Of a DNA stretch of 30,411 nt, positions 3,587 to 25,116 are shown one piece after another. The stretch spans positions 1-30,411 of the IMG/VR virus record IMGVR_UViG_3300019763_000017. One strand, given 5' to 3'. The DNA is from a virus. Position 1 is the first letter of the stretch. Every line of letters starts with the position of its first letter. The notes under the pieces were generated by a model that saw nothing but the letters and a program-made list of their open reading frames with translations, had not been told where the DNA came from and ran no database searches. The translations under genes were made by a program, and so were the position numbers.

Positions 3587-3946
3587 ATGGCATTTTGGGA
3601 TATATTTGGAGGTACAGTAGCTAAGAGTGTAGAAACTATTGCTAAAGAATGGATTGATACAGATATGGAAAAAGCAGAAGCAAGTGCCTTAATGGTTAAG
3701 ACACTTGATCCAAATGGATTAATGAGGAGAGACATAAGCAGAAAAGTATCTAATTTATATATGCTTTATATCTTATGTACTATGGGATTATTAATATGTT
3801 TTTCTTTTGAAATAGGAAATATAACACAAATAGAAAAAGCGATTAGTAATTTAACAGGTTTATTCATTCCTATAACTACAATGTTTACAGCGATTGTAGG
3901 TGCAAGTTTCGGTGTAAATGGTATTAATGCACATAAAGGTAAATAA
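3587..3946 (+). CDS. Holin (3TM/GTA-holin-like)
   Basis: A 119-residue membrane protein with hydrophobic segments at about 57-74 and 90-110, separated by a short polar loop and preceded by an amphipathic N-terminal region with MRRDISRKVSN. This looks like the holin family found in gene-transfer agents and phages (Holin_3TM type), which permeabilises the inner membrane for release of the endolysin. The gene directly downstream is the endolysin, in TAATG overlap, which strongly supports the call. Confidence 0.65.
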   Translation: MAFWDIFGGTVAKSVETIAKEWIDTDMEKAEASALMVKTLDPNGLMRRDISRKVSNLYMLYILCTMGLLICFSFEIGNITQIEKAISNLTGLFIPITTMFTAIVGASFGVNGINAHKGK

Positions 3947-8549: not shown

Positions 8550-8555
8550 GGTTTT

Positions 8556-8707
8556 ATAAGTTTTTTAAGGTTACCAGTCCAAGGTTACGCTTTTTAGTGA
8601 TAACCTTAAAGAACTTTACTTGAAGTAATACAAAAAGTGGCTGGTAACTCCTTTTTGCATCTTCGCAAAATTGTAATTTTCTTAAATTATGAAAGTACCA
8701 ATGTTAA
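8556..8707 (+). promoter_or_regulatory. Highly structured leader of the replication operon
   Basis: GTTACCAG (8570-8577) pairs perfectly with CTGGTAAC (8641-8648). Inside it are AAGGTTA/TAACCTT (8581-8587/8601-8607) and TTAC/GTAA (8616-8619/8625-8628), giving a three-way junction. Two more hairpins follow: TTTTGC/GCAAAA (8653-8658/8665-8670) and TAATTT/AAATTA (8674-8679/8684-8689). The downstream ATG has only a weak, distant GAAAG as ribosome site, so translation may depend on folding. It is not a tRNA: no T-loop consensus and no anticodon arm. Confidence 0.55.
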
Positions 8708-17519: not shown

Positions 17520-17854
17520 AAGATATATTAGTAGTAAATAGAGAATATACAAAGCAAGATGGAACACAAGGTGCAGAATTTGTAAAAGTTGGAGTTTTAG
17601 GAGTAAGCCAAAATAATAAAGAGTATATTATACTAGAGCCACATATAAACCTTGCAGGACTTCCAAGAAGCGAAAAAGGTGGTGTAATGTGTAGTGTAGT
17701 TGATAAATCAAACAACGGTCAAACAAATAACAACAGTAATCAAGGCGGTTATCAGCAACAAAACCAACCACAGCAGAATTATAACCAACCAAATCAGCAA
17801 CAACAATATAACCAACCACAGCAAAGTTATAACCCTAATCAGCACCAGCAATGA
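17516..17854 (+). CDS. Protein with Q/N-rich low-complexity tail
   Basis: A 112-residue protein. The first 63 residues (KDILVVNREYTKQDGTQGAEFVKVGVLG ... INLAGLPRSEKGGVMCSVVD) look like a small beta-barrel. Residues 65-112 are almost only Gln, Asn, Pro, Tyr and Gly, with repeats of YNQP and YNPN. The context among recombination genes and the beta-domain plus flexible tail recall single-stranded DNA-binding proteins, but the acidic tip of bacterial SSB is absent and I do not recognise the fold firmly. ATGA overlap with the VRR-NUC gene. Confidence 0.6.
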   Translation: MKDILVVNREYTKQDGTQGAEFVKVGVLGVSQNNKEYIILEPHINLAGLPRSEKGGVMCSVVDKSNNGQTNNNSNQGGYQQQNQPQQNYNQPNQQQQYNQPQQSYNPNQHQQ

Positions 17855-17887
17855 CTAGAACAGATAATACCACACTAAAGGAAAGCT

Positions 17888-18073
17888 ATGGAATATAACT
17901 TAGCAAAAACAAGACCGTCATTAAAAAATATGGCAGTCTTTCACGATTCAACAATACAAAAAATTAGAACTATTCAAGATAGAGATAATAAAAAGTATGA
18001 AAAGATGAAAAAAGATTTTCTTAAAGCAATAAAGAATAAAAAAAGATTAGAAGAATATTTAAACAAATTTTAA
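17888..18073 (+). CDS. Small basic hypothetical protein
   Basis: Not recognised. A 61-residue strongly basic helical protein (KTRPSLKNMAVFHDSTIQKI ... KKDFLKAIKNKKRLEEYLNKF) behind AAAGGAAAG. It ends directly before promoter P4. Confidence 0.55.
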   Translation: MEYNLAKTRPSLKNMAVFHDSTIQKIRTIQDRDNKKYEKMKKDFLKAIKNKKRLEEYLNKF

Positions 18074-18074
18074 C

Positions 18075-18120
18075 ATTTGGAACAAAAACCCTTGACAAAT
18101 ATTCCAAATTGATATATAAT
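18075..18120 (+). promoter_or_regulatory. Promoter P4 with flanking inverted repeat
   Basis: TTGACA at 18092-18097 and TATAAT at 18115-18120, spacer 17, perfect consensus. ATTTGGAA (18075-18082) and TTCCAAAT (18102-18109) are perfect inverted arms on either side of the -35. The expected start is at or next to the ATG at 18127, so the mRNA would be leaderless. Confidence 0.85.
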
Positions 18121-18126
18121 AACATT

Positions 18127-18309
18127 ATGAAAGCACAAATAACAGAAGCAATAAGATTAAGCGGTATACCAAGAACAACATTTTACAGGTTATTAAAGAA
18201 TTACCCAGAGTTTGAGAAATTCGCACTTGTAAGCGTTATAGGAAACAATTTAATTAAAGACGAAGTTATCGAAGCTTTGACAAAAAAACAAAAAGAGGAA
18301 ACAAAATGA
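18127..18309 (+). CDS. Small HTH regulator, leaderless mRNA
   Basis: A 60-residue protein with ITEAIRLSGIPRTTFYRLLKNYPEF, a Cro/HTH-like helix-turn-helix, and a helical dimerisation-like end. The ATG lies six bases after the TATAAT of P4, where transcription normally begins; there is no ribosome site. An upstream in-frame start (18109) lies before the -10 box and is excluded. It resembles the other leaderless 60-residue gene at 20746 in length and in an F-x-R-x-x-K-x-x-P-E motif. It may repress its own promoter. Confidence 0.7.
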   Translation: MKAQITEAIRLSGIPRTTFYRLLKNYPEFEKFALVSVIGNNLIKDEVIEALTKKQKEETK

Positions 18310-18536
18310 ATTTTACAGCAGATGAAGTACAAAAAACAGAAAACAGAGTTGTTACACTAGACTTTAAAGGGTCTTTGGATTTTACAATCGGAGAAGATGG
18401 TAAAGTAGTTGATGGAGATAAAACAGTAACACATCAAGAACTTTATGAAATGATTGCACCTAAAGAAGAAGTTGAAGAAGATGAAACTTTACCAACAGAC
18501 ACTTTAGAATCACAAGAAGCGTGGGAACAAAACTAA
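18306..18536 (+). CDS. Small acidic protein
   Basis: Not recognised. The 76-residue product begins NFTADEVQKTENRVVTLDFKG and ends in a very acidic stretch rich in Glu/Asp (EEVEEDETLPTDTLESQE). ATGA overlap with the HTH gene. DNA-mimic or chaperone-like roles fit such composition, but nothing proves them. Confidence 0.55.
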   Translation: MNFTADEVQKTENRVVTLDFKGSLDFTIGEDGKVVDGDKTVTHQELYEMIAPKEEVEEDETLPTDTLESQEAWEQN

Positions 18537-18561
18537 TGCTACCTATAGTATGAAAAAAGAA

Positions 18562-18696
18562 GCCTCTAAAAAGAAAATATTTTTTCAGAGGATAGAGAAA
18601 GCTTAGGATTAATTTCCTGAGCAATAAGGTTCAAGTGAGTGTATAAGAAGTGCTTAGTTGAAAAACATAGTCAGTTTATACATTCTTTTGAGCTTT
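18562..18696 (+). ncRNA. Triple-hairpin RNA leader or small RNA
   Basis: Three successive stems lie between two genes. First, CCTCTAAAAA (18563-18572) with TTTTT-C-AGAGG (18581-18591), one bulge. Second, GCTTAGGA with TCCTGAGC (18601-18608/18615-18622), one G-U. Third, a long stem AAGGTTCAA-gt-GAGTGTATAA (18626-18646) with TTATACATTC-tt-TTGAGCTTT (18676-18696), about 19 pairs with three G-U. G-U pairs in place of mismatches argue for RNA, not DNA, function. The lipoprotein gene follows 30 bases later. No clear promoter was seen; TATAGT at 18544 is weak. Confidence 0.5.
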
Positions 18697-18726
18697 AAGA
18701 GAGCCAAAAAAAGAGAGGAATTAAAG

Positions 18727-19149
18727 ATGAAGAAATTATTATTAATAAGTGTAGCAGTAGGAGCATTACTACTTACAGGGTGTGGGTCTGATTCACAAGT
18801 AGCTTCACAAAATTTATCAAAAGCAGCGGATATGTTTGAGATAGATAGAAGAGTAGTTTTTTACAATGGTATAAGTGGAGAATATATTTTAAATATAGAG
18901 GGCAGATGTTCAATAACTGATAGCGGTAGACAATTAGAAGTTACTTGCAAAACTCCAAATGGTTTTAAAAAGCACTTCTTAGGATTGTCAGACAATGTCA
19001 CTTATTTTGCAGAACAATTAAATTATAAAAATGTTAGTACTTTACATTATAGAGTTATATTTAAACCTCAAGCAATCGTACCTGATATAGATTTCAGAGG
19101 AAATACTAACGAATTAATAAATGCAGTTACACCAGACAGGAGAGATTAA
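18727..19149 (+). CDS. Phage beta-sandwich lipoprotein
   Basis: A 140-residue lipoprotein. KKLLLISVAVGALLLTGC gives a type II signal peptide with lipobox LTGC (Cys19). The body has NLSKAADMFEIDRRVVFYNG, then CSITDSGRQLEVTCK (two Cys), KKHFLGLSDNVTYFAEQL and HYRVIFKPQAIVPDID, which I recognise from proteins annotated as beta-sandwich lipoproteins in many proteobacterial phages. Function is not settled; surface placement suits superinfection exclusion or host-envelope modification. ATG 18727 with GAGGA upstream is preferred over an in-frame TTG at 18658. Confidence 0.75.
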   Translation: MKKLLLISVAVGALLLTGCGSDSQVASQNLSKAADMFEIDRRVVFYNGISGEYILNIEGRCSITDSGRQLEVTCKTPNGFKKHFLGLSDNVTYFAEQLNYKNVSTLHYRVIFKPQAIVPDIDFRGNTNELINAVTPDRRD

Positions 19150-19150
19150 T

Positions 19151-19252
19151 ATGAAAAATAACGAAAACGTAAAGTTTGATACAGTATATAAAACAAACAA
19201 ACAATTTAGAGACAGAGTAAACAAATTTTTAGGGGTAAAAAATGGCAAGTAA
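19151..19252 (+). CDS. Tiny basic ORF (33 residues)
   Basis: Behind GGAGAGATTAAT. The sequence is NENVKFDTVYKTNKQFRDRV and a short tail. It overlaps the next gene by 11 bases. Not recognised. Confidence 0.4.
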   Translation: MKNNENVKFDTVYKTNKQFRDRVNKFLGVKNGK

Positions 19253-19475
19253 TCAAGAAGTGAAAGAAATGTTAGTAAAGATGGAAAATGTTTTAGAACA
19301 AGCTATCGCGTTAAAAGAAAGAAATAAAGAGCTTGAAATAAAGCTTGCAATTTATGAAGATGCAGATAATGAACTTGATCAAGACCTAAATGACTTTAGA
19401 AACAAGCTAGAATATTTCACAAGCCTTAGAGATGAAACAAGTATCGAGCATAAAATCGCAGAGTTAGAAGATTAA
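19242..19475 (+). CDS. Small coiled-coil protein
   Basis: A 77-residue, almost wholly helical protein with heptad-like LVKMENVLEQAIALKERNKEL and acidic end. AGGGG precedes the ATG. Similar coiled-coil dwarfs are common in phage accessory regions. No function recognised. Confidence 0.55.
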   Translation: MASNQEVKEMLVKMENVLEQAIALKERNKELEIKLAIYEDADNELDQDLNDFRNKLEYFTSLRDETSIEHKIAELED

Positions 19476-25067: not shown

Positions 25068-25076
25068 ATAATCAAA

Positions 25077-25111
25077 GCCTTTTTATTTTGCTATAATAAA
25101 GATAAAAAGGC
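25077..25111 (+). promoter_or_regulatory. Portal operon promoter inside a 10-bp inverted repeat
   Basis: GCCTTTTTAT (25077-25086) and ATAAAAAGGC (25102-25111) are perfect complements flanking TTTGCTATAATAAAG, whose TATAAT (25092-25097) has TTGC before it. No TTGACA-like -35. The arms suit a dimeric regulator bound on both sides of the -10. The right arm also carries the AAAAAGG ribosome site of the portal gene. Confidence 0.6.
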
Positions 25112-25116
25112 AACTG

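Follow-up and report, generated by a model that had tools for sequence, protein, structure and literature searches.

A conserved RNA hairpin before changing genes in a phage group, a possible intercistronic processing and protection signal

What does a structured RNA between two small phage genes do, and does it belong to the gene that follows it? The question arises in the virus record IMGVR_UViG_3300019763_000017, analyzed here as a single stretch of 30,411 bases (the window). Its genes, which lie almost exclusively on the + strand, include those for terminase, portal, head protease, replication, and tail proteins, and the encoded terminase, PAPS-reductase-like protein, and head protease have no close match among named phages or plasmids. 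A structured RNA (18562–18696, + strand) sits between a gene for a 76-aa protein and a lipoprotein gene. The initial annotation described it as three consecutive stems under selection as RNA, possibly a leader that controls the lipoprotein, or else a separate RNA. The features of the region are listed below; L050, L042, and L045 are related loci discussed further on.

18092..18120, + strand: predicted sigma-70-type promoter, TTGACA-17-TATAAT, 12/12 consensus matches; the nearest good one upstream
18306..18536, + strand: gene for the 76-aa protein, immediately upstream of the RNA (open reading frame)
18563..18591, + strand: hairpin H1, private to the window phage (minimum free energy, MFE, fold)
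18601..18622, + strand: hairpin H2, 8 pairs, loop UUAAUU (MFE fold)
18625..18697, + strand: hairpin H3, the conserved core, with 11 pairs, a U.U mismatch, 11 pairs, and a 27-nt loop (MFE fold and alignment)
18636, + strand: U of the U.U mismatch, partner U18686; kept in the window, L050, and L042, U-A in L045
18712..18719, + strand: Shine-Dalgarno sequence (SD) AGAGAGGA, outside the hairpin (read from the sequence)
18727..19149, + strand: lipoprotein gene, PF25682 Phage_VG64 / phrog_478 (Pfam and PHROG matches)
19151..19252, + strand: gene for a 33-aa protein; its L050 homolog (64% identity over 28 aa) immediately follows the RNA there

The MFE fold of 18540–18730 (+) contains H1, H2, and H3, bearing out the three consecutive stems. 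It has an energy of −48.5 kcal/mol and a z of −5.4, and none of 200 shuffles folds as well; the − strand has a z of −2.0, with 5 of 200 shuffles equally good. When the whole window was tiled on both strands (135-nt tiles, 30 shuffles per tile), the z of −6.8 found for the 135-nt target 18562–18696 (+) was reached by 0 of 674 other tiles. H3 is formed by pairing of 18625–18635 with 18687–18697 and of 18637–18647 with 18675–18685, giving 22 pairs and one U.U mismatch instead of the approximately 19 pairs with a 2x2 internal loop first described. Above the 22 pairs, a small internal loop leads to an apical stem of 3+3 pairs. The H3 fold is stronger on the + than on the − strand in the window (−24.9 vs −9.2 kcal/mol), L050 (−14.9 vs −4.0), and L042 (−28.0 vs −22.9); a longer region of L050 has no strand bias by z (−2.2 on +, −2.5 on −). 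Stem length alone is unexceptional, as an equally strong stem is held by 1/20 shuffled sequences for the window, 1/20 for L042, and 2/20 for L045. Sequestering of the SD was considered and rejected, since the drawn fold leaves it outside the stem, 14 nt from H3.

A transcript from the promoter at 18092–18120 would span two small genes and then the structured RNA. At the matching place, L050 carries TTGACA-17-TATACT, with the same spacing as read from its sequence, and a 69% identical homolog of the 76-aa protein, which itself has no PHROG or Pfam match, is encoded upstream of the RNA. Terminator-like sites are absent from 17800–19300, and H3 is followed by AGAGAGCCAAAA, not by the U-run that would complete an intrinsic terminator. 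Promoter-like sites occur in the region at chance level (6 found vs 6.5 expected), and the regional scan placed none directly upstream of H2–H3. Because the upstream promoter is a perfect sigma-70 consensus and no terminator-like site follows, the RNA probably lies within a longer message.

H3 is found in four lineages: the window phage, L050, L042, and L045/L047, the last three comprising four contigs beside the window's own phage. L002 and L038 are the same phage as the window (99.99% over 13,160 bases) and are not independent. L050, whose terminase is 96% identical to that of the window, keeps H2 and H3 with 100 of 112 aligned positions identical, its five compared genes standing at 0.78–0.87. 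H2 is present only in these two phages, with 1 one-sided change in its 8 pairs in L050, and L050 lacks H1, the stop codon of its upstream gene abutting the core. Model R1, built from the window and L050, recovered L042 (E 0.0076 over 58 sources), which had no part in its construction. H3 of L042 has the same 11+U.U+11 architecture and a 69-nt loop, and a tRNA-like sequence occupies the place of H2; the R1 match forces helix 1 onto the end of this sequence, and that helix was not counted. The sequence itself (3721–3812, +) is tRNA-Ser-like (RF00005, 36.1 bits) and lies directly 5′ of the H3 homolog, outside H3; it has no good anticodon stem by eye and is not called by ARAGORN. No tRNA or tmRNA is recognized in the window by ARAGORN or RF00005.

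Model R2, built from the window, L050, and L042, gives 14.6-bit matches in L045 and L047 that are weak alone (E 0.28 and 0.22, respectively). There, H3 is a perfect 17-pair hairpin lacking the U.U; it is identical to L042 over its first 14 bases, and an SD and a GTG start follow immediately. In a sequence-blind scan, the top + strand stem is the H3 homolog in the window, L042, and L045. Across the window, L050, and L042, the arms are fixed at 22 positions plus the U.U, while the loop takes lengths of 15, 27, and 69 nt. The 5′ arm motif GUUnWAGUGARU is kept in all four lineages, and in all four the hairpin is on the coding strand, with an SD and start codon immediately downstream; in L042 and L045 it adjoins the SD. 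Of the three-stem element originally proposed, it is thus H3 that is conserved in four lineages, H1 being private and H2 confined to two phages.

The pattern of changes within H3 argues for selection on the RNA. In the window, L050, and L042, 63 of 66 H3 cells pair (95.5%), and registers slid by 1–3 give at most 54.5%. These cells comprise 53 Watson-Crick pairs, 10 G-U pairs, 0 A-C, and 3 other combinations; G-U occurs at six positions and A-C at none, which agrees with the frequent G-U pairs noted at the outset. A decaying DNA repeat would be expected to yield G-U and A-C about equally. Five of the 22 pairs are changed on both sides with pairing kept, a number reached by 2 of 500 column shuffles, which is not a probability given three related sequences. 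L045 was aligned by hand, as the four-sequence MAFFT alignment misplaced it; with it, 6 of 23 positions are double-changed with pairing kept, and 6 cells are unpaired, three of them U.U. The window forms 22/22 pairs plus the U.U, L050 20/22, L042 21/22, and L045 only 17. Selection at the RNA level, as initially proposed, is supported by the difference between strands, by the presence of G-U but not A-C cells, and by the compensatory changes.

The gene directly behind H3 differs in each lineage: the lipoprotein in the window and proteins of 31 aa in L050, 77 aa in L042, and 78 aa in L045. These four proteins show no mutual relation by tblastn at E 0.05, and those of 77 and 78 aa have no Pfam match. 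In L050, no lipoprotein lies behind the RNA; the 31-aa gene, a homolog of the window gene next after the lipoprotein, follows directly. Conversely, 34 lipoprotein loci, one of them (L002) the same phage, were inspected by eye over 230 bases upstream, and the RNA was compared with 51 loci by blastn. The RNA is found in 0 of the 33 other lipoprotein loci, and beyond the window phage L050 is the only one of the 51 to carry it. Given that the downstream gene differs and that the RNA is missing from the other lipoprotein loci found, specific control of the lipoprotein, a function first suggested for the leader, is not supported. The lipoprotein is the present cargo and not part of the conserved element, and the RNA looks like a leader for whichever gene follows. 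The PF25682 / phrog_478 family occurs in phages of several hosts; PHROGs labels it a recombination directionality factor, a poor fit with the lipoprotein signal.

Further members were sought by motif, fold, duplex, and model. Rfam 15 has no match in the window at gathering score, and at E up to 10 a search of 18080–18760 returned one chance-level match and none that is credible. Motif scans of viral contigs found 5 stretches with GAGCTTTAAGAGAGCC, 56 with TTAGGATTAATTTCCT, 117 with GTTNWAGTGAGTNNATAA, 60 with AGTGAGTNNATAA combined with a gap and TATNNANTCT, and 11 with TAGTTTTAGTGARTAGA. Checks by fold, duplex, or model left no members other than the window phage, L050, L042, and L045/L047. 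Duplex formation was checked for 121 motif matches across all loci collected. The R1 search covered 58 loci, including only part of the 56 TTAGGATTAATTTCCT stretches; for GTTNWAGTGAGTNNATAA, 79 of the 80 loci listed for the 117 stretches entered the model search, the omitted one being L042's own contig; and for AGTGAGTNNATAA/TATNNANTCT, 57 loci from the 60 stretches did so. L166, L181, and L189 form good duplexes and were set aside after inspection, having no matching context. L166 scored E 0.66 in one model search and its record E 0.045 in another, L189 scored E 0.11 at another place in the locus, and L181 is not among the matches listed. CRISPR-repeat mimicry, prompted by GUUUUAGU in L042 and L045, was dropped, as the motif is not kept in the window or L050. 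Named phages gave matches to the lipoprotein gene only, the RNA returning chance matches. Among genome contigs, terminase alignment yielded no relative, and the hairpin pattern occurs in 5 contigs, none with model support. In the portions of the literature on RNase III, phage, and structured RNAs that were available, no paper on the H3 RNA was recognized.

Other structured sites occur in these phages. A second structured leader is found at 8555–8690 (+) of the window and at 142–295 of L046, the two being 83% identical. It consists of a long-range GGUUACCAGUC/GGCUGGUAAC helix around a hairpin, plus a third hairpin; among its 31 consensus pairs, some one-sided changes are kept, none is broken, and none is changed on both sides. 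In the window it is followed by the gene of a DUF6291 replication-like protein, in L046 by that of an AntA/ANT antirepressor; both copies share a short reading frame that starts MKVPMLN, and the leader has no Rfam match above chance. Upstream of the portal gene, at 25075–25112 (+), lies a hairpin whose loop carries the extended −10 sequence TGCTATAAT; this is possibly a late promoter. L050 has a similar hairpin, and L045 a more divergent one. Long hairpins, of 17 pairs in L048 (3672–3748) and 18 pairs in L042 (1853–1896), each stand just ahead of another gene's SD or start codon and are unrelated to H3 in sequence.

H3, together with H2 in two phages, is tentatively proposed to be an intercistronic processing and 5′-protection hairpin of a polycistronic phage mRNA, the reading we favor at somewhat less than even confidence. 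H3 lies between same-strand genes with a promoter upstream and no terminator. We infer transcription, cutting, protection, and the choice of nuclease as follows. Transcription from the upstream promoter would read through the hairpin, because no U-tract of a terminator follows it. The stem-loop would then mark a cut site in the long transcript for a host nuclease, which may be RNase III, with the two-turn helix as its substrate, or a different endonuclease that cuts beside the stem. After cutting, it would remain as a 5′ protective structure right before the SD of the next gene, making the downstream message more stable or less dependent on the part upstream. Such a hairpin would act on whichever gene fills the slot, so that four lineages can carry four different genes behind H3. 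Arms fixed in three lineages, a free loop, and a position just ahead of the SD while the gene itself changes fit a cis-acting signal for cutting and protection. RNase III substrates comprise about two helical turns of near-perfect duplex, and the 17-pair helix without U.U in L045/L047 is a weak candidate for a strict substrate. The conservation of GUUnWAGUGARU in the 5′ arm also counts against this proposal, as a generic processing hairpin would not need it. Intergenic stem-loops are reported to mark cuts and to stabilize processed operon transcripts (PMC10311766, PMC4423207), and a 5′ hairpin can stabilize downstream mRNA (PMC3997798, PMC4843948).

Because the 5′ strand is conserved beyond the need of pairing, the main rival, albeit an unlikely one, is an operator hairpin at which a phage or host RNA-binding protein reads the 5′ strand or the U.U and governs the translation or stability of the next gene in step with infection. 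The motif in four lineages, the U.U in three, and the contact between hairpin and SD in L042 and L045 all fit an operator; however, no candidate binding protein was found, the window SD stands outside the stem, 14 nt away, and the mismatch is lost in L045. Less probable again is a portable leader of the phage group, in which a phage or phage-recruited factor would read the conserved 5′ strand and recombined cargo would join a timed post-transcriptional programme; the second leader at 8555–8690 would then be another slot. A stand-alone small RNA acting in trans ranks below this and is doubtful. Its independence of the downstream gene, stable fold, and patchy yet conserved distribution would suit such an RNA, but promoter-like sites are at chance number with none directly upstream of H2–H3, a terminator is lacking, and trans action does not need a constant place before an SD and start codon.

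Two further explanations lie at the level of DNA. The leader might be kept as a short homology for exchanging small cargo genes, its fold being secondary, as four lineages with differing downstream genes, the second leader likewise kept while its gene changes, and the PeSL cassettes of T4-like phages (PMC4503421) as a precedent would allow. This is improbable, because compensatory changes and the G-U bias demand RNA selection beyond DNA identity and the arms of L042 and the window have diverged. Still more strongly disfavored is a DNA inverted repeat (a mobile-element relic or a replication/recombination site) or a tRNA-locus relic. The palindromic character of the helix suffices to give model matches on the − strand, and the RF00005 match of 36.1 bits lies just 5′ of H3 in L042, yet 10 G-U against 0 A-C cells fixes the strand, and ARAGORN finds no tRNA signal in the window, L050, or L045. 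A metabolite-sensing or attenuating leader of riboswitch type is the least probable reading of all: a structured 5′ position with two to three stems is what it would predict, but Rfam yields nothing at gathering score and nothing credible up to E 10, the downstream genes have no common function, no terminator or SD-sequestering alternative is shown, and the loop is not conserved.

H3 defines an RNA family that Rfam does not contain, backed by compensatory changes across four phage lineages, and it offers a clear case in which the leader stays and the gene behind it changes. If the processing and protection role is confirmed, the leader would allow one to predict how orphan cargo genes of this phage group are expressed. 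It also provides a concrete way to test how separate mRNA levels are set in phages whose many small genes share one strand.

In the early mRNA of phage T7, the RNase III processing sites are hairpins between the genes of a polycistronic RNA. Like H3, these sites are intergenic and precede the SD of the next gene; unlike them, the H3 helix shrinks to 17 pairs in L045, and the likeness considered here is one of position. The 5′ stem-loop of the Helicobacter pylori vacA 5′ UTR raises mRNA half-life (PMC4843948); it serves a single host gene, is not intercistronic, and is unrelated to H3. The PeSL cassettes of T4-like phages are likewise reported to be conserved stem-loops tied to gene shuffling (PMC4503421). 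However, PeSLs join a promoter and a terminator, whereas H3 has no terminator and its promoter lies about 0.5 kb upstream; no promoter stands beside the stem-loop within the element, the nearest strong one being at 18092–18120. In the cip-cel operon of Ruminiclostridium cellulolyticum, an example of selective RNA processing and stabilization in bacterial operons, a stem-loop that is not a terminator likewise lies between operon genes (PMC10311766, PMC4423207). H3 differs in being a phage family conserved in both sequence and structure, with downstream genes that change and a cut that is a proposal.
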